Shown here: piece by piece, positions 13,373-24,014 of the stretch
Layout of the letters: each line of letters opens with the position of its first letter
Numbering within the stretch: the first letter of the stretch is position 1
DNA from: Halanaerobiales bacterium
Lineage (GTDB): Bacteria; Bacillota; Halanaerobiia; Halanaerobiales; Halanaerobiaceae
Reading direction: 5' to 3'
NCBI GenBank assembly: GCA_016278485.1
Contig: JADQBT010000018.1
Coordinates: forward strand, 1 to 64,000
Length of the DNA stretch: 64,000 nt
The notes under the pieces: generated by a model
Told to the model about the DNA's origin: nothing
The model's input: the letters and a program-made list of their open reading frames with translations, nothing else
Databases searched by the model: none
Translations under genes and position numbers: made by a program

Positions 13373-15715
13373 TTGAGTGAATTTAAACAGATTGGTCGTT
13401 CTTTTTCGAGAACCGATGGCTTGGATAAAGTTCATGGTAAGCAGGAATATGTAAACGATTATCAACCAACAGGCTTACTGCATGCTGCTTTAAAGATTAG
13501 TACCCATGCCCATGCCAAGATTAAATCAATTGATACTGCTGAGGCGGAAGCTGCTTCAGGTGTTCAGGCTGTTATTACTGGAGATGACTTTCCTGTTACA
13601 CTGGGGCTTTATATGGGTGATCATCCACCACTTGCTTTACATAAAGTTAGACATTATGGAGAACCAGTTGCAGCTGTAATTGCCAATACTGAACATCAGG
13701 CTAAAAATGCTGTTGAATTAATAAAAGTTAAATATGAAGATTTGGAGGTTATTAGTAGTCCAACTGATGGCTTAAAAGCTAATGCACCTTTATTACATGA
13801 GAATATGGATGAATATACCCATATAGATGCTGTTCATCCTGAACCAGGCAGTAATGTTGCTAATCACACGAAGATTAGAAAGGGTGAAGCTGCTCAAGCA
13901 ATTGCAGATGCTGAGATTGTAATAGAAGATACTTTTTCTTTTCCACCTTGTGATCATGTGGCAATGGAAACACGAGCTGTAATATCAGAGATAAAGGCTA
14001 ATGGAAATGTGGTTATCCATTCGACAACTCAGGCGCCCTTTACTGTAAAAGAATTATTAAGCTTTAATTTTGATATTCCGGTCGGTAAAATTAAAATCAT
14101 AGCTCCACCTATTGGCGGTGGGTTTGGAGGCAAGGCTGGTATTCAATTGGAAGGATTAGGTTATTTGCTAACAAAAGCAGCTGATGGTCGGCCTGTAAAA
14201 CTGGTCAATGATAGAGAAGAAGATATGCTTAGTTCGCCTGGGCATATTGGTATGGAGGCTAAAGTTAGATTAGGGGCTACAGCAGATGGAAAATTAATAG
14301 CAGCTGAGCTTGATTATCATTTTGATGCAGGCGCATATGCAGATTATGCGGTAAATGTAAGTAATGCAGCTGCAATTTCTTGTACAGGACCATATGATAT
14401 TCCGAATGTACGCTGTGATTCTTTATGTGTTTATACAAACCACCCATTTGCAACAGCATTCCGTGGATTTGGACATGTTGAACTTGCATTCCCAATTGAA
14501 AGAAGTATGGATCTATTGGCTGAAAAAGCAGGTATTGATCCGGTTGAAATAAGAATGAAAAATGCAATTAAAGAAGGAGATACTTCTCCTACACAGAGTT
14601 TGATGGATGCAAATACTGGTGATCTACGCGAATGTATTAAGAGAGCTGCTAAAATGATTAATTGGGATCAAGGTTCTTTTATAAAAAAAGATGAAAATAA
14701 AGTAATAGCAAAAGGTTTTGGACTGCTCTGGAAATCACCTGCAATGCCACCTAATACGGGGGCAGGAGCGATTATTACCTTTAATAAGGATGGTAGTCTC
14801 AATCTGCATACTGGCATTATGGAGATTGGACAAGGAAGTAAAACTGGACTTGCGCAAATTGTTGCTGAACGTTTTGGTACTAGTCCTGAAAACATTCATC
14901 TCGTTCAAGAAGTTAATACTGAAACAGCGCCACATGATTGGTCAACAGCTGCCAGTCGTAGTTTAATGATGGCCGGTAGAGCGGCACTAGAAGCTGCTGA
15001 TGATGCAATAGACCAGATCTGTCGGACGGCGGCTATTCCTTTGCGTTGTCCACCTGAAGATCTAATTGTTGAGGGAGGTCGTGTCTTCTTAGAAGATGAA
15101 CCATCAATTGGGCTGCCACTTGATGATGTGGTACATGGATATGTATATGAAAATGGCAATGCGATCGAAGGACAGGTTATTGGTCGGGGCAATTATATAG
15201 CACGTCGCTTGTCCGGAATTGACCCTGAGACTGGCAAAGGTCGTCCTAGTCTTGAATATACATTGGGTGCTCAGGCAGTTGAAATAGAGTTAGATTTAAA
15301 TGATTATTCATATCAGATCAAGAAGGCTGTTTCGTGTATGGATGTAGGTAAAGTAATTAATCCGAATCTGGCCCGGGGCCAGGTTGTTGGTGCTATCTCA
15401 ATGGGAATTGGTCTGGCCAGGAGTGAAGGGTTTGTTTTTAATAGTAGAGAACAAGTAGTTAATGGTGTGCTGAGAGATTATAAAGTTCTTCGGTATGGTG
15501 AGGAACCTGAATATGAAATTGATTTTGTTGAGACTCCTCAGGGAGATGGGCCATTTGGTTTACGTGGTCTAGGCGAACAAGGAATCATCGGTATCCCTGG
15601 AGCTATTGCAAATGCATTATCTAGAGCTACTGGTGTTAAACTGAATTACATTCCATTATTGCCAGAAGATATTTGGCAATCTGTAAAGGAGGCAAGTCAT
15701 AATGATTCCATTTAA
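13373..15715 (+). CDS. Xanthine dehydrogenase-family hydroxylase, molybdopterin-binding subunit
   Basis: Large catalytic subunit that hydroxylates a heterocycle, aldehyde or related substrate at a molybdenum centre. The 780 residues have the N-terminal hammerhead domain (about 20-130), the pterin-binding segment PPIGGGFGGKAG (about 244-255), FRGFGHVE (about 364), and the catalytic glutamate in GLRGLGEQG near residue 730. It starts at TTG, nine bases after GAGGGAGTG. The FAD and FeS subunits follow with overlap. No purine gene is near, so the substrate is open; a typical CoxL AYRCSFR loop is absent, arguing against CO dehydrogenase. Confidence 0.9.
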   Translation: MSEFKQIGRSFSRTDGLDKVHGKQEYVNDYQPTGLLHAALKISTHAHAKIKSIDTAEAEAASGVQAVITGDDFPVTLGLYMGDHPPLALHKVRHYGEPVAAVIANTEHQAKNAVELIKVKYEDLEVISSPTDGLKANAPLLHENMDEYTHIDAVHPEPGSNVANHTKIRKGEAAQAIADAEIVIEDTFSFPPCDHVAMETRAVISEIKANGNVVIHSTTQAPFTVKELLSFNFDIPVGKIKIIAPPIGGGFGGKAGIQLEGLGYLLTKAADGRPVKLVNDREEDMLSSPGHIGMEAKVRLGATADGKLIAAELDYHFDAGAYADYAVNVSNAAAISCTGPYDIPNVRCDSLCVYTNHPFATAFRGFGHVELAFPIERSMDLLAEKAGIDPVEIRMKNAIKEGDTSPTQSLMDANTGDLRECIKRAAKMINWDQGSFIKKDENKVIAKGFGLLWKSPAMPPNTGAGAIITFNKDGSLNLHTGIMEIGQGSKTGLAQIVAERFGTSPENIHLVQEVNTETAPHDWSTAASRSLMMAGRAALEAADDAIDQICRTAAIPLRCPPEDLIVEGGRVFLEDEPSIGLPLDDVVHGYVYENGNAIEGQVIGRGNYIARRLSGIDPETGKGRPSLEYTLGAQAVEIELDLNDYSYQIKKAVSCMDVGKVINPNLARGQVVGAISMGIGLARSEGFVFNSREQVVNGVLRDYKVLRYGEEPEYEIDFVETPQGDGPFGLRGLGEQGIIGIPGAIANALSRATGVKLNYIPLLPEDIWQSVKEASHNDSI

Positions 15716-16541
15716 TTTTAAATACTATCGTCCAGCTAATATTGAAGAAGCTGTAGAACTATATCAACAGCTCAAAGCAGATGGTGAAAAGTCAATTTAT
15801 TATGCTGGCGGAACTGAAATTGTAACTAATGCACGTGATGGACAAAAAAAATACGATGCTTTAATTGATTTGAAAGATATTAATGAGTGCTTAGAGCACG
15901 GTGAAAAAAATGATGAATATGTTTTTGGCGCTTGCCTTACATTAAATGAAATAGTAGAAAAAGATTATTTTCCTCTGTTCAGCCTTGCCTGTCGACCTGT
16001 AGCTGATCATACAACAAGAAATCAATTAACTATGGGAGGAAATATTTGCGGGAAACTTCCTTATCGAGAAGTAATTTTGCCTTTGATGTTAGTAGAAGCT
16101 AATTTTGTTTTTGCTGGACCAGAGGGAATGAGGACAGTTGCTGCTGCGGAAGCTTATGATAAAAGAATGCTTCTTAATGAAGGAGAGTTTCTAGTGCAAG
16201 TGAAGGTTCCTAAAAAATTTGCTGAATTAGATTATCATGATGTTAGAAAAGTAAAGCAGTCTGAAGTAGATTATCCCTTATTACATCTAGCTGCTTTAAA
16301 AGATGAAGCAGATCAGATTAGAATTGCGTTTAGTAGTATCTGTGCTTTTCCATTCCGGCTAGAAGATATTGAAGCAATATTTAATGATAGCCAATTAGAG
16401 ATGGAAGAGAAGGTAGAGCAGATAGTTGCTAAATTCCCGATTCCAATTAAAGATGATAAACGAGGTTCAGCTGATTATAGACGCCTACTGCTTGGGCAGA
16501 GTTTAGCTGAAATATGGCATAAATTAGGAGGAGATGCTTAA
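15702..16541 (+). CDS. Xanthine dehydrogenase-family FAD-binding subunit
   Basis: Passes electrons from the iron-sulfur subunit to the final acceptor through FAD. The 279-residue protein has the FAD loops YYAGGTEI (about residues 33-40) and TMGGNICG (about 108-115), and a C-terminal CO-dehydrogenase-type domain. It lacks the extra loop with a [4Fe-4S] cluster found in 4-hydroxybenzoyl-CoA reductase. It overlaps the large subunit by 14 bases and the FeS subunit by one base, so the three are one translation unit. Confidence 0.9.
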   Translation: MIPFNFKYYRPANIEEAVELYQQLKADGEKSIYYAGGTEIVTNARDGQKKYDALIDLKDINECLEHGEKNDEYVFGACLTLNEIVEKDYFPLFSLACRPVADHTTRNQLTMGGNICGKLPYREVILPLMLVEANFVFAGPEGMRTVAAAEAYDKRMLLNEGEFLVQVKVPKKFAELDYHDVRKVKQSEVDYPLLHLAALKDEADQIRIAFSSICAFPFRLEDIEAIFNDSQLEMEEKVEQIVAKFPIPIKDDKRGSADYRRLLLGQSLAEIWHKLGGDA

Positions 16542-17014
16542 TGAAAGCATATGAAAATATCTCTCTGGTAAAATTAAAGGTTAATGGTGAGACTAGAGAT
16601 GTGGCCATCAGACCAGCAGATACTTTGCTGCGTGTATTAAGAGAAAAACTTGGTCTGACTGCAGCTAAACCTGGTTGTGAAAATGGTGATTGTGGTGCCT
16701 GTACAGTTTTGATTAATGAGAAACCTGTCAAATCATGTATGAAGCTGGCAGTAGAAGTAGATGCAGGAGCAGAAATTATTACATTGGAAGGTATAAAAAA
16801 TTCTATAATTCAAGAAACATTCTTAGAAGAAGATGGTTTCCAGTGTGGTTATTGTACACCAGGATTTTTGGTAAACGCCTATGCGCTATTGAAAGAACAT
16901 CCAGATGCAGATGACAAGTTAGCTAAAGAATGGCTTGAAAGCAATATTTGTCGCTGCACAGGCTATGAAGGTATTAGAAACGCACTTAAATTAGCCCAAG
17001 AAAAACTAAAATAA
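16541..17014 (+). CDS. Xanthine dehydrogenase-family [2Fe-2S] subunit
   Basis: Small electron-transfer subunit. The 157 residues hold both conserved clusters: the plant-type ferredoxin set CENGDCGACTVL...C (about residues 47-67) and the helical-domain set CGYCTPG ... CRCTGY (about 106-143). It is the last gene of the operon and is followed by a terminator at 17022. Confidence 0.94.
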   Translation: MKAYENISLVKLKVNGETRDVAIRPADTLLRVLREKLGLTAAKPGCENGDCGACTVLINEKPVKSCMKLAVEVDAGAEIITLEGIKNSIIQETFLEEDGFQCGYCTPGFLVNAYALLKEHPDADDKLAKEWLESNICRCTGYEGIRNALKLAQEKLK

Positions 17015-18379: not shown

Positions 18380-19195
18380 ATGGAAATTTATGCTCTGGTT
18401 GGTCCCAGTGGAAGTGGAAAAAGCCACCGGGCTGGTTTATTAACAAGCAAATATAATATACCTTTAATAATTGATGATGGATTATTAATAAAAGGCAGAA
18501 AAATATTGGCTGGTTCTTCTGCTAAAAAAGAAGAAAGTAAAATGGCTGCAATTAGAAGAGCTTTATTTTATGATAGACTCCAGGTAAGTGAGGTTAAAGA
18601 GGCGCTTCGGAACTACCCAGATGAAAAGCTTTTGATTATAGGTACTTCAAAAGGAATGATTGAAAAAATTATTGAACATCTGGACTTGCCTGAGATTGAT
18701 AACTATATTGATATTCGAGAGATCGCCACTGAAGATGAAATTGAACGGGCGAAAACTATTAGGAAAAATGAAGGTAAACATGTTATACCAGTGCCATTGA
18801 TTGAAGTGGAGCCACAGTTTCCCGGTTATTTACTCAATTCTCTGGATTTGTTTTTTAAAAGAGGAGAAGAGACTGTGCGCCATGAAAAAAGTATTGTTAG
18901 GCCTAGATTTAGTTTCTATGGGAATTTGATTATAAGTAATCGTGTCTTAATTGATTTAATAAATTACTTTCTGAACCATGCTTCTGTATTAGTAAATTGG
19001 AAAAAAGTAAAGGTTAATAAAGAAGATGGTGCCTTAAAGATAAGTTTCTCTTTATCTTTAGCATACGGAGGCAATCTGCATAAAATTGCAAAAAGATTAC
19101 AGAGAGATTTAAAGTTATATTTAGAAGAAATGACCGGCTTGACTATAGAAAACATTAATATTGAAATATATACTTTAGATTATACAGTAGATTAG
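18380..19195 (+). CDS. P-loop ATPase with C-terminal Asp23-like domain
   Basis: A 271-residue two-domain protein. Residues 1-150 start with a Walker A loop GPSGSGKS (about 8-15) and look like a small ATP/GTP-binding kinase or ATPase. Residues about 185-271 resemble the Asp23/Gls24 (DUF322) fold: a strand-rich LKISFSLSLAYGGNLHKIA, then a helix and EEMTGLTIENINIEIY, close to the family pattern in which a helix leads into EEMTGL. Asp23 proteins act in envelope stress or membrane association. The gene sits 10 bases before moaA, but a role in cofactor synthesis is not shown. The combination is unusual and the function is unknown. Confidence 0.7.
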   Translation: MEIYALVGPSGSGKSHRAGLLTSKYNIPLIIDDGLLIKGRKILAGSSAKKEESKMAAIRRALFYDRLQVSEVKEALRNYPDEKLLIIGTSKGMIEKIIEHLDLPEIDNYIDIREIATEDEIERAKTIRKNEGKHVIPVPLIEVEPQFPGYLLNSLDLFFKRGEETVRHEKSIVRPRFSFYGNLIISNRVLIDLINYFLNHASVLVNWKKVKVNKEDGALKISFSLSLAYGGNLHKIAKRLQRDLKLYLEEMTGLTIENINIEIYTLDYTVD

Positions 19196-19205
19196 GAGTG
19201 GAAAA

Positions 19206-20192
19206 ATGGGACAGATAACTGACCGATATCAACGAAAAATTGATTATTTGCGTATTTCTATAACTGACCGCTGTAATCTTCGTTGTAGGTATTGTATGCC
19301 CGACCAGGGAGTTGAAGCAAAATCTCATCAGCAAATTTTAAGTTATGAAGAAATATTAGAGATAGTCAAAGTGGGTATGGAACTTGGTATTGAAAAAGTG
19401 AGAATTACCGGGGGAGAACCATTGGTAAGATTAGAAGTTATAGATTTTGTTAAGAGTTTAAAGAAACTTGGTTTAAAAGATATTGCTATGACAACAAATG
19501 CCGTTTTGTTGGATCAATTTGCATTTGATCTGGCAGAAGCTGGCCTAGATAGAGTAAATATCAGTTTAGATACTTTAAATCCTGCCAAATATAGAGATAT
19601 AACCCGTAACGGTGAATTAGTTGATGTAAAAAATGGTATTGATGCAGCGTTTAAAGCAGATCTAACCCCTGTTAAAATTAATGTTGTCGTAATTGATGGA
19701 TTTAACGATAATGAGATACTAGATTTTGTCAAACTAACAGAAGAAGAAGCTCTCCATGTGAGGTTTATTGAATATATGCCGATTGGTACAGATGGTGGTT
19801 ATTTTGAGAATGGCTATTTACCATTGAATAAGATAGAAGAGATAGTTAGAGACCAGCATAAGTTAATTCCATTTAAAATTCGGGGAAGTGGCCCAGCTCA
19901 ACAATTTAAATTGGTCGATGGTGAAGGCAGTGTTGGTTTTATTGCGGCAGTAAGTCATAAATTTTGTGATAATTGCAACCGCTTTCGCTTAACAGCAGAT
20001 GGAAATTTGCGACCTTGTCTGGCCAGTAATTTAGAATTTTCATTTAAAGATAAATCAGGTAGTTTGCTGGAGAGGGAAGGAATATTAGAGGTATTTAAAA
20101 AGGCAATTATCAAAAAACCAGAAGGACATAATTTTTTGGAAGAGAATAATTTTACTGATGGAAATAGAAATATGTTTCAGATTGGAGGTTAA
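19206..20192 (+). CDS. moaA: GTP 3',8-cyclase MoaA
   Basis: Radical SAM enzyme that starts molybdopterin synthesis from GTP. The SAM-cluster cysteines are Cys23, Cys27 and Cys30 (CNLRCRYC); the second cluster is formed by [18 protein letters not shown] near residues 258-275. The C-terminus ends in IGG, the conserved GG tail. The 328-residue length is normal. It is followed by moaC one base after its stop and lies in a moaA-moaC-MOSC-mogA series. Confidence 0.96.
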
Positions 20193-20193
20193 A

Positions 20194-20676
20194 ATGTCTA
20201 AGCTGAGTCATGTAAATGAAGATGGTAAAGCTAGTATGGTTGATGTTACAGCAAAAAATGAGACTGAAAGAGTAGCTCTTGCGGCTGGAACAGTAAGCAT
20301 GAAACCTACTACTTTAAAGATGATTAGAGATGGAGATATAGAAAAAGGAGCAGTTTTAGAAACAGCTCGTATCGCTGGTATACTTGGTGTTAAAGAAACA
20401 CCTAATCTAATACCAATGTGTCATAATCTTTTAATTACTGGAATTGATATAGAATTTTCTTTTCAAGATAAATCTACATTAGAGATCAAAGCTACTGCCA
20501 AAACCACAGGCAAGACAGGTGTGGAGATGGAGGCATTGACAGGTGTTTCAATTGCAGGCCTTACAGTTTATGATATGTGTAAAGCTGTAGATAAAGAGAT
20601 GGTAATTGGTGAGATTAGATTATTGAAAAAAACTGGTGGGAAGAGTGGAACATTTATTAGAGAGGAGTCTTGCTGA
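20194..20676 (+). CDS. moaC: Cyclic pyranopterin monophosphate synthase MoaC
   Basis: Converts the MoaA product to cyclic pyranopterin monophosphate. The 160 residues include [14 protein letters not shown] at the start, [11 protein letters not shown] (about residue 75), and [23 protein letters not shown] (about 110-132), all MoaC signatures. ATG at 20194 follows TTGGAGG; an upstream in-frame ATG at 20158 lies inside moaA and is rejected because the family starts near here. Confidence 0.96.
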
Positions 20677-21137
20677 TGAAGGGGAAAGTATTAGCAATTA
20701 ATATTAGTATAGAAAAGGGTACTATGAAAGAACCTATTCGTGTAGGGAAGATTATTCCGGATTTTGGCATAGAAAATGATGCCCATGGTGGTGATTGGCA
20801 CCGTCAGATTAGTCTGCTTGATATGAAAAGCATAAAAAAAATGGAGGCAAAAGGTCTTGACCTTGATTATGGTGATTTCGCTGAAAATATAACAACTGAA
20901 GGACTTGTACTTCATGAATTGCCAATTGGTACTCAGATGAAGATTGGTGAAAATGTAGTCTTAGAAGTTACTCAGATTGGTAAAGAGTGTCACCATGGCT
21001 GTGAAATTGCCCAGAAGGTGGGTAGTTGTGTGATGCCCTTAGAAGGTATTTTCGCAAAAGTAATTTCTGGTGGAGAGATAGAACCGAATGATACTATTGA
21101 TATTATTTTTGAAAAAGAAAATGGAGTTGATAAATAA
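20676..21137 (+). CDS. MOSC domain protein
   Basis: A 153-residue stand-alone MOSC protein, a fold related to the C-terminal domain of molybdenum cofactor sulfurase. It keeps the family pattern GGDWHRQISLLD (about residues 31-42), GDFAENITTEGL (about 65-76) and the cysteine in IGKECHHGCEI (about 103-113). In similar operons such proteins sit beside MogA and are thought to carry sulfur or bind the cofactor. I choose ATG 20676 over TTG 20670 because the GAGGAG site is better spaced. It overlaps the moaC stop by one base. Confidence 0.88.
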   Translation: MKGKVLAINISIEKGTMKEPIRVGKIIPDFGIENDAHGGDWHRQISLLDMKSIKKMEAKGLDLDYGDFAENITTEGLVLHELPIGTQMKIGENVVLEVTQIGKECHHGCEIAQKVGSCVMPLEGIFAKVISGGEIEPNDTIDIIFEKENGVDK

Positions 21138-21139
21138 TT

Positions 21140-21634
21140 ATGATCAGAACTGCGGTGATTACCATTAGTGATAAAGGGTCGCGTGGAGAGAGAGAGGATC
21201 TCAGTGGCCCAGTCATCACAGAAATGTTAGCTGATTTTTCAGCTGAACGTGTTTATTATAAAATCATACCAGATGAGAGAGAAGTTATTAGTAGTGAATT
21301 AGTAAATCTTTCCCATTCCGGTGATGTGGATTTGATTTTGACTACAGGTGGTACAGGCTTTGCACCTCGTGATATTACACCAGAAGCAACTATGGATGTT
21401 ATTGAAAAAGAAGTTCCAGGTTTACCTGAATTGATGCGCCACGAAACTATAGAAATTACGCGAAGAGCAGCTCTTTCACGGGCCAGAGCAGGTATCATAA
21501 AGGATACATTAATTATCAACTTACCTGGTAGTTCAAAAGCAGTTAAAGAATGCCTGGAAACGATAGTAGACGTCATTCCACATGGAATTGATATTTTGAA
21601 AAAAACTATTACTGAACATAAAAAAGAAGAGTAA
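21140..21634 (+). CDS. Molybdopterin adenylyltransferase (MogA/MoaB family)
   Basis: Adenylates molybdopterin before metal insertion by MoeA. The 164-residue protein has ISDKGSRGEREDLSGP (about residues 8-23), the TTGGTGFAPRDITPEAT (about 71-87) core and INLPGSSKAVKE (about 135-146). It starts two bases after the MOSC gene. MogA and MoaB are hard to tell apart by sequence; either gives the same reaction here. Confidence 0.92.
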   Translation: MIRTAVITISDKGSRGEREDLSGPVITEMLADFSAERVYYKIIPDEREVISSELVNLSHSGDVDLILTTGGTGFAPRDITPEATMDVIEKEVPGLPELMRHETIEITRRAALSRARAGIIKDTLIINLPGSSKAVKECLETIVDVIPHGIDILKKTITEHKKEE

Positions 21635-21680: not shown

Positions 21681-24014
21681 TTGCGAAAATATCATGCTGA
21701 AAAGATGAATAAAGAGTCTGCTTATCCTTATCAACCTTGGCAAATTAGTGAAAATGAATTTTTAGTTGAAAATAATCATCACAATGAAGCAATTTTTTCT
21801 TTGGGAAATGGTTATATGGGATTACGAGGTACACTTGAAGAAGATTATGCTGGTAGTGCGGAAACAACAACTCCAGGTTTTTATATTAATGGTGTATATG
21901 CTTCAGAAGAAATTATTTATGGAGAAGAAGCCCCGTCTTTACCACGGCGGGGTCAAACTATGATTAATTTAGCAGACTGGAGTGAAATTAATTTATATAT
22001 AAACGAAGAGAAGTTTAACATGTTGCAGGGACATTTAACTGATTACATACGTAAGCTTGACCTTAAAAAAGGTGTTATTACCCGTTCTCTTATCTGGGAA
22101 GACAGGCAAGGCAGGAAAGTAAAGATAAAAATTGAAAGGTTAATTTCCTTTACAAGAGAAAATATTGCTGCAATAAATTATAGCGTTCAACCACTTAACT
22201 TTTCTGGTAAAATCAGTATTCAGTCAGCTGTTAATGGTGATGTTAGTAATTTCTATCATTTACGTAATAAAAAGAACGCTCAGGTATTGCAGGGTAAGGT
22301 AGAGGGGAAAAATGGGATTTTACTTCAAAAAGTAAAAAGTACTGGTTTTGAAATCGGCTTTGCTGTTGAACATATCCTCAAAAAAATGGGGGGAGCAGAG
22401 TGGAAGTTAGAAAGTAGGGAATCAAGTAATAGGATTGATTGGATATTTAATCTAAACGCAATAGAGGGTGAAGAGTATAGTATAAGTAAGATTGTTGCAG
22501 TAAATTATGCTGAACGCAATGGTGAAAAACCGCTTGAAAAGGCCCGGGCTGAGTTGGCTAAAGCTGCTATTATTGGTTATGATGGACTTAGTAGTGAACA
22601 GACTAAATTTATGCAAGGATACTGGGAAGATGTTGATATCGAAATAAAGGGAGATCCTGCTTTACAGCAAGCATTTCGTTTTAATTCATTTCATATTCTG
22701 CAATCTACAGGTAGGAATGGAAGAACAAGTGTAGCGGCAAAAGGTTTGACAGGAGAGTATTATGAGGGGCACTACTTCTGGGATACCGAAACATATATTT
22801 TACCCTTTTATATTTTTCAACGCCCAGAAGTTGCTAAGAATTTGCTCCTTTATAGATACTACACACTTGACAAGGCAAAGATTAATGCCAGAAGAATGCG
22901 CCTGGATGGAGCGCTCTATCCCTGGAGGACAATTAATGGAAATGAAGCTTCCGGTTTTTTTATGGGTTCAACTGTCCAATATCATATTGATGCAGATATT
23001 GCTTATGCAATTTATCTATATTACCAAGTAACAGGAGATCAAGATTTTATAGATAATTATGGTTTAGAAATTTTTGTAGAAACTGCTCGCATGTGGGCTA
23101 GTCGGGGTAGTTATATTGAAAAAAGAAATAACAAATTTTGTTTTAATGTTGTCTGTGGACCAGATGAATATAAACCAGGGGTTAATAATAATGCCTTTAC
23201 AAATTATATGGCGAAATTCAATCTGGAAATAGCTGCTAAGATGGCTAGAGAAGTAAAAAATAGGTCTGGTGATAAGTATGCAAAGATGGCAGAACGGGTA
23301 AATTTAGATGAAGATGAAGTTGCCAATTGGAAACAATTGGCTGAAGATGTTTATTTGCCTTTTGATGAGGAGTTAAATATAATTCCTCAGGATGATTCAT
23401 TTCTTTATAAAGATCCAATCCATGTTGATAGTATTCCTGTAAATGAACTACCTTTAGTTAAAAATTGGCATCCTCTGATTATTTGGCGTTACCAGGTTAT
23501 TAAACAAGCTGATGTTATTTTGCTAATGTTACTTTTAGGTGCTAAGTTTTCTCAAAAGCTTAAAAAAGCCAATTATGATTTTTATGAACCTAAAACTACT
23601 CATGATTCCTCATTGTCACCAGCTATTTATAGTATTATTGCTAATGAAATAGGTTATGCTGAACAATCATTTAATTACTTTATGCAAACCGCAAGACTAG
23701 ACTTAGATGATTATAACGAAAATGCATATCAAGGAGTACATACAGCTTGTATGGGTGGCACCTGGCTTGCTCTAATACAGGGTTTTGGTGGTATGAGAGT
23801 TGAAAATGGAAATTTATATTTTAATCCCACTATACCTAAAAAATGGGATAGTTATAAGTTTAGAATTAGATATAAAAAAAGCCAGTTAGAAGTTGAAGTC
23901 AATAATAAAGAGGTTAGTTATTTATTATTAGGGGGAGAGAAGATAAACTTTACGCACAGAGATCAGACGATAAATCTTTCCTGCAGTAAATTAAGTAAAA
24001 AAATAAAAATATAA
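21681..24014 (+). CDS. Glycoside hydrolase family 65 disaccharide phosphorylase
   Basis: Inverting phosphorylase that splits an alpha-glucosyl disaccharide with phosphate to give beta-glucose 1-phosphate. The 777 residues cover the N-terminal beta-sandwich (about 15-270), the (alpha/alpha)6 barrel with catalytic acid Glu in GPDEY (about residue 495) and NNNAFTNYM, and the C-terminal beta domain. HDSSLSPAI and the GEYYEGHYFWDTETYILP segment are typical. Maltose, trehalose, kojibiose or nigerose phosphorylase cannot be separated by eye. No beta-phosphoglucomutase is adjacent. It starts at TTG after a GGGGGGT site. Confidence 0.9.
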   Translation: MRKYHAEKMNKESAYPYQPWQISENEFLVENNHHNEAIFSLGNGYMGLRGTLEEDYAGSAETTTPGFYINGVYASEEIIYGEEAPSLPRRGQTMINLADWSEINLYINEEKFNMLQGHLTDYIRKLDLKKGVITRSLIWEDRQGRKVKIKIERLISFTRENIAAINYSVQPLNFSGKISIQSAVNGDVSNFYHLRNKKNAQVLQGKVEGKNGILLQKVKSTGFEIGFAVEHILKKMGGAEWKLESRESSNRIDWIFNLNAIEGEEYSISKIVAVNYAERNGEKPLEKARAELAKAAIIGYDGLSSEQTKFMQGYWEDVDIEIKGDPALQQAFRFNSFHILQSTGRNGRTSVAAKGLTGEYYEGHYFWDTETYILPFYIFQRPEVAKNLLLYRYYTLDKAKINARRMRLDGALYPWRTINGNEASGFFMGSTVQYHIDADIAYAIYLYYQVTGDQDFIDNYGLEIFVETARMWASRGSYIEKRNNKFCFNVVCGPDEYKPGVNNNAFTNYMAKFNLEIAAKMAREVKNRSGDKYAKMAERVNLDEDEVANWKQLAEDVYLPFDEELNIIPQDDSFLYKDPIHVDSIPVNELPLVKNWHPLIIWRYQVIKQADVILLMLLLGAKFSQKLKKANYDFYEPKTTHDSSLSPAIYSIIANEIGYAEQSFNYFMQTARLDLDDYNENAYQGVHTACMGGTWLALIQGFGGMRVENGNLYFNPTIPKKWDSYKFRIRYKKSQLEVEVNNKEVSYLLLGGEKINFTHRDQTINLSCSKLSKKIKI

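Follow-up and report, generated by a model that had tools for sequence, protein, structure and literature searches.

What does a P-loop do in front of an Asp23-like domain? The question is raised by one gene in a 64,000-nucleotide stretch of contig JADQBT010000018.1 from a Halanaerobiales bacterium, the whole of which is called the window here. An earlier note, made from the letters alone, had read its product as a fusion of a nucleotide-binding domain with an envelope-stress domain. The gene is complete, and length-matched orthologues of its product were found in both a 61-genome and a 299-genome search. The features of the gene, with its downstream neighbour, are as follows:

18380..19195, + strand: complete P-loop/Asp23 gene (ORF list, ATG start, 271 aa)
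18401..18424, + strand: Walker A/P-loop, residues 8-15, GPSGSGKS (homologue alignment)
18380..18772, + strand: predicted kinase-type P-loop domain, residues 1-131 (AlphaFold2 models, fold comparison)
18773..18928, + strand: connector, residues 132-183, conserved, of low model confidence (AlphaFold2, alignment)
18929..19192, + strand: short Asp23 domain, residues 184-271, Pfam core 208-263 (Pfam, AlphaFold2, profile alignment)
19206..20192, + strand: moaA-like gene, a local neighbour outside the conserved unit, starting 10 nt past the focal stop

Promoter-like sites did not rise above the shuffled-sequence level, and an own promoter of the focal gene was not retained.

The clear Walker A that the note had seen at the N-terminus is intact. 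Residue conservation was counted over 81 homologues, window protein included, and G8, G11, G13, K14, S15, D32, D33, G34, K49, S90, M93, A124, R128, H134, P137, and G181 are invariant (81/81). The pattern GxxxxGK[ST] is matched by G8, G13, K14, and S15 in every homologue. AlphaFold2, run with 55 and with 73 homologues, models residues 1-131 confidently (pLDDT block means 80-97) in the order strand, P-loop, helix, DDG after strand 2, strand 3 without an acid, strand 4, and a LID-like helix with R128. A Walker B of the type hhhhD was not found on the strand beside the P-loop, positions 84-90 being free of acidic residues in 81/81 rows. The Walker B acid is absent from some P-loop kinases too, and an acid pair after strand 2 together with an acid-free strand 3 is, we presume, reminiscent of shikimate kinase. 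Since active-site-like residues are fixed in all 81 homologues, nucleotide binding is supported; K14, S15, D32, D33, S90, R128, H134, and P137, fixed throughout, fit a working nucleotide site. From this conservation we infer that the N-terminal half binds nucleotide.

The affinity of this half is harder to name. No curated Pfam or NCBIfam family, kinase profiles among them, scored above its cut-off for residues 1-180 of the window protein, and an ABC-type ATPase (PF00005) was set aside at 23 bits against a cut-off of 25 (residues 2-107). The fold search with the P-loop domain gave a best Foldseek E of 4.4e-3 and a best VIA-align Z of 7.0 (rmsd 3.8, 128 aligned), values that a widespread arrangement alone could give. 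Its best fold neighbours are P-loop kinases (adenylate, gluconate, shikimate, and polynucleotide kinase, Clp1), which have the Walker A and the LID-like helix in common with the model, whereas the window family has the acid-free strand 3 and a GKHVIPVP motif of its own, with Z at most 7.0. For the whole model, an Era-like GTPase-KH protein ranked first in Foldseek (E 1.2e-5) and was rejected at rmsd 18.0 and TM 0.23. As modelled, this half is a kinase-type P-loop domain that has diverged, the likeness being loose and low-scoring. The connector behind it carries GKHVIPVP and E-K-(T/S)-I-V-R-P-x-F; it is mostly modelled at pLDDT <50, and the pTM of the two-domain model is 0.50. In the model, this low-confidence stretch (132-183) would suit a loop that becomes ordered on ligand binding.

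The likeness of the C-terminus to Asp23, which the note had proposed, held up in profile searches. Pfam Asp23 (PF03780) matches residues 208-263 with E=9.9e-9, its 36 bits exceeding the cut-off of 28. The region of about residues 180-271, singled out for checking, gave the same answer: residues 179-271 searched alone reach 39.1 bits, and AlphaFold2 models an Asp23 domain at 184-271. An Asp23 match at E≤1 was also present in 55/55 aligned homologues (best 1.2e-16), and with the above-cut-off Pfam match this rules out a chance resemblance. The match spans positions 48-104 of the 108 in the profile, less than a full-length domain, and the insertion of YqhY and YloU is absent; the protein is therefore said to have an Asp23-type domain, not to be a canonical Asp23 protein. 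Compared with the Asp23/Gls24 family (PF03780; B. subtilis YqhY and YloU, S. aureus Asp23), whose Pfam profile it matches at the C-terminus above cut-off, it lacks this insertion of 17-20 residues and has a P-loop domain in front. Indeed, a profile made from the C-terminal part could be aligned to YqhY-like and YloU-like proteins only across a break of 17-20 residues, and runs unbroken into most AmaP-like proteins of the relatives. Its bit score is highest against the YqhY-like proteins, so that the likeness to AmaP concerns domain length and not score. Judged by these alignments, the Asp23 part is of a short, AmaP-like form. The AmaP equivalog model itself (NF033218) matches residues 181-263 with 21.1 bits, below its cut-off of 55. 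The Asp23 part also matches the fold of the C-terminal domain of cation diffusion facilitators well (Z 11.0, rmsd 2.9, 82 aligned), which we take to reflect a small alpha/beta fold in common rather than kinship. A sequence search of solved structures had no Asp23 chain among the matches listed.

AmaP is a protein with an N-terminal membrane segment. As the membrane anchor of Asp23, it likewise places a short C-terminal Asp23-type domain behind a different N-terminal part, and the idea that Asp23 members normally stand alone does not always hold for this reason. In contrast to AmaP, the window protein does not begin with a hydrophobic segment (maximum 19-residue hydropathy 1.12, against 2.95 in the AmaP-like protein of its own genome), and no transmembrane segment was found anywhere in it; the maximum exceeds 1.6 in 5 of 81 homologues, with a top value of 2.01. 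Of the nucleotide-controlled membrane attachment or scaffolding suggested in the note, nucleotide control thus keeps a putative basis in the conserved residues and scaffolding is plausible by analogy with AmaP, while membrane attachment is left without direct support. S. aureus Asp23 polymerises, and AmaP keeps it at the membrane (PMC6954212); B. subtilis YqhY affects acetyl-CoA carboxylase (PMC5437119). A P-loop/Asp23 protein is not described in the passages covered of these two papers, nor in those of PMC5204125 and PMC12548448. In addition, the open-access literature, covered as titles and starts of abstracts and reaching subscription journals only in small part, held no paper on such a protein, in line with the note, which knew of no described function for the fusion.

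The domain pair is real; it is not a local fusion. A full-length match was found in 34 of 61 genomes (the window's own and 60 relatives), with identity down to 39%, and in 127 of 299 evenly sampled Bacillota genomes. By family, the latter sample divides into 46 all-positive, 67 all-negative, and 9 mixed, a nearly all-or-none pattern that indicates vertical inheritance. Among GTDB species genomes there are at least 576 relatives, the best 80 of which are all Bacillota-named, including Halanaerobium, Sporomusa, Selenomonas, Mitsuokella, and Pelotomaculum. The P-loop half on its own was not seen among the matches listed for the 299 genomes (E=4.0e-56 to 4.2e-13). A recent or local gene fusion was rejected on this count, the architecture being fixed across a large family. 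Similarly, a mobile or phage origin was discarded, since the window protein as query found no relative in viral contigs; a homologue occurred in 1 of 72,556 plasmid records, a 286-kb Monoglobus record. A role in anti-phage defence was dismissed as well (PADLOC, 0 families at E≤0.1 among 5027 models). The family is an old, widespread, chromosomal, and vertically inherited two-domain protein of Bacillota.

The explanation that we tentatively prefer, as possible and still short of probable, is that this two-domain family acts as an adaptor, switched by nucleotide and docking by means of its Asp23 domain. Binding or turnover of NTP would order the H134-P139 loop and the connector, and the ordered loop and connector would in turn alter the docking of the Asp23 domain onto a partner. 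This partner could be a stand-alone Asp23-family protein of the YqhY or YloU type, or another client. The pairing of AmaP with Asp23 offers a plausible precedent for such docking; the switching and the identity of the client are conjectural. Potential partners are present, since four or five Asp23 regions were counted in 12 of the 13 genomes of the window's group (three in the remaining one, and four in most). The window genome has a YqhY-like gene, an adjacent AmaP-like gene, a separate YloU-like gene, and the focal gene (L222, L223, L225), the names being assigned from size, score, and position. Against an adaptor stand the connector that would transmit the switch, modelled with the low confidence given above, and the fixed residues, which would be just as fitting in a true small-molecule kinase. 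The neighbours also vary, with PHP in Negativicutes, cmk in some Clostridia, and moa or GH65 in the window and in Halanaerobium.

One neighbour does recur. We surveyed 80 chosen loci from 53 families (77 of the 127 carriers and 3 from the 61-genome search), and DnaD was counted on six-frame segments, the ORF caller having returned no focal gene in 6 of the 80 loci. In 26 loci (15/53 families) the fetched stretch includes a DnaD-type gene, and in 23 loci a DnaC-type gene. The identity of these neighbours is backed by profiles: all 6 DnaD-type proteins scanned contain DnaB_2 and two of these also DnaD_N, and all 3 DnaC-type proteins scanned contain the IstB/DnaC-type ATPase. DnaD is codirectional and downstream in 8 loci of 5 families (gap 8-46 bp in 7/8; for example L050, a Peptococcaceae MAG, and L092, a Clostridia MAG), divergent and upstream in 16 loci of 9 families, and convergent in 2 loci of 1 family (Pelotomaculum, L078 and L081). 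In several of the divergent loci (L153, L154, L168, L189), genes for DUF4015, a putative glycosyl hydrolase, recur downstream on the opposite strand. The neighbourhood and domain-pair survey that the note had proposed thus found a constant domain pair and a recurrent link to dnaD-dnaC, but otherwise neighbours specific to each lineage. This recurrent linkage to DnaD-type primosome genes is new here, and it makes replication a possible client process.

Among the 127 carriers, 43 have a DnaD-type gene within 12 kb of the focal gene, often an adjoining dnaD-dnaC pair. The linked share depends on the DnaD threshold: 39 of 49 genomes at E≤1e-40 alone, the other 10 having the two genes on different contigs; 43 of 53 when four genomes with weaker DnaD rows (G307, G172, G096, G137) are included; and 43 of 73 with any match at E≤1e-12, where positions are listed for only some of the 20 extra unlinked genomes. 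Mapped onto a tree of 81 proteins, linkage requires at least 5 changes, and the codirectional order appears in three separate clades. RecA served as a control. Among the rows listed, 64 genomes have RecA and DnaD and 18 have both on one contig; RecA lies within 12 kb of DnaD in 0 of these 18, and the focal gene does so in 30/30 same-contig pairs of the RecA-listed subset.

These observations speak for a DnaD-DnaC helicase loader that is regulated or tethered by the family, its assembly or position being controlled by nucleotide state, a reading that we hold to be possible and on balance doubtful. In B. subtilis, a membrane-attached DnaB controls the assembly or position of the helicase loader. 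C. difficile has no DnaB, and a DnaD-like protein is proposed to fill both roles there (PMC5204125, PMC12548448). Linkage was not shown in 84 of the 127 carriers, however, and the window genome is one of them, with dnaD-dnaC on contig C13 and the focal gene on C17. There, 8 nt separate a dnaD-type gene coding for 357 aa, with two DnaB_2 matches, from a dnaC-type gene coding for 339 aa (L259:3492-5593). The DnaD search profile was moreover built from linked copies, and the same block repeatedly holds genes for AlaT, AsnC, RNase J, and MTHFR. RecA is 53-158 kb from the focal gene or from DnaD in several genomes, and old regional synteny may therefore explain part of the DnaD pattern. The DnaD/DnaB and DnaC/DnaI proteins, neighbours in 15/53 families, showed no homology to the focal protein in the searches run, and the tie is one of gene order alone. 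In its full form, an Asp23-domain scaffold that would tether or gate the DnaD-DnaC loader under nucleotide control in Bacillota without a B. subtilis-type DnaB, the proposal is unlikely, and the helicase loader is the boldest of the client candidates.

Another doubtful candidate is a small-molecule or nucleoside/sugar-type P-loop kinase in which localisation or oligomerisation would be the sole task of the Asp23 domain. Kinases (adenylate, gluconate, polynucleotide) are numerous among the fold neighbours, the weak Pfam matches among the homologues are to IPT, AAA_33, and Cytidylate_kin, and the placement of the acids is presumably shikimate-kinase-like. The structural scores reported above are low, however, the window protein exceeds the cut-off of no curated kinase family, and no metabolic partner gene recurs across lineages. 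Finally, an envelope-stress protein proper, Asp23/AmaP-like and acting in cell-envelope homeostasis, is very unlikely: it has in its favour the Asp23 domain and the NCBI name of the plasmid-borne homologue ("Asp23/Gls24 family envelope stress response protein"), but this name seems to derive from the C-terminal half, most of the recurrent neighbours identified in the sampled loci serve replication, RNA decay, or metabolism, and the window protein has no membrane segment.

The annotation matters because the protein occurs in about two in five of the sampled Bacillota genomes, and a homologue is annotated by its C-terminal half as an envelope-stress protein. On sequence grounds, the family is a conserved variation on the Asp23 theme, with a putative nucleotide site that is fixed and with helicase-loader genes as recurrent neighbours. 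Naming it, with K14, D32, D33, R128, and H134 as testable residues, would correct this annotation and provide a handle on the role of the Asp23 domain and on helicase loading in clostridia without DnaB. If the loader were indeed the client, a family of envelope-scaffold domains would be tied to the initiation of DNA replication.

The other neighbourhoods differ by lineage, and genomic context thus names no single client everywhere. In Negativicutes, the focal gene is preceded by genes for RecA, a RecX-like protein, RNase Y, YmdB, SpoVS, PepA, and PHP. The PHP/RNase Y/YmdB block is strong in this lineage and was rejected as a general partner, PHP being present in 4 of 80 loci and 2 families of the spread sample. 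Between the RNase Y and YmdB genes of Negativicutes lies a gene for a 174-aa protein (L110:4661-5185, a cluster found in 19 loci) with no Pfam match at E≤0.001. In some Clostridia, the focal gene is followed by cmk-plsC-bipA. In the window, it is followed by a moaA-moaC-MOSC-mog run (19206-21634, first gap 10 nt). A molybdenum-cofactor role was discarded, as moa genes adjoin in 3 mapped loci only (the window, L219, and L145) and GH65 takes this place in Halanaerobium. At L219, moaA-moaC follow the focal gene; at L145, from another family, the moa genes come just before it. A GH65 gene is directly downstream in relatives (L032-L034), as it is in the Halanaerobium relatives, and in the window it is found at 21681-24014, with the moa run between it and the focal gene. 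Just upstream of an MFS transporter gene and the focal gene, and near these cofactor genes, the window encodes a xanthine-dehydrogenase-type molybdoenzyme of three subunits (13373-17014).
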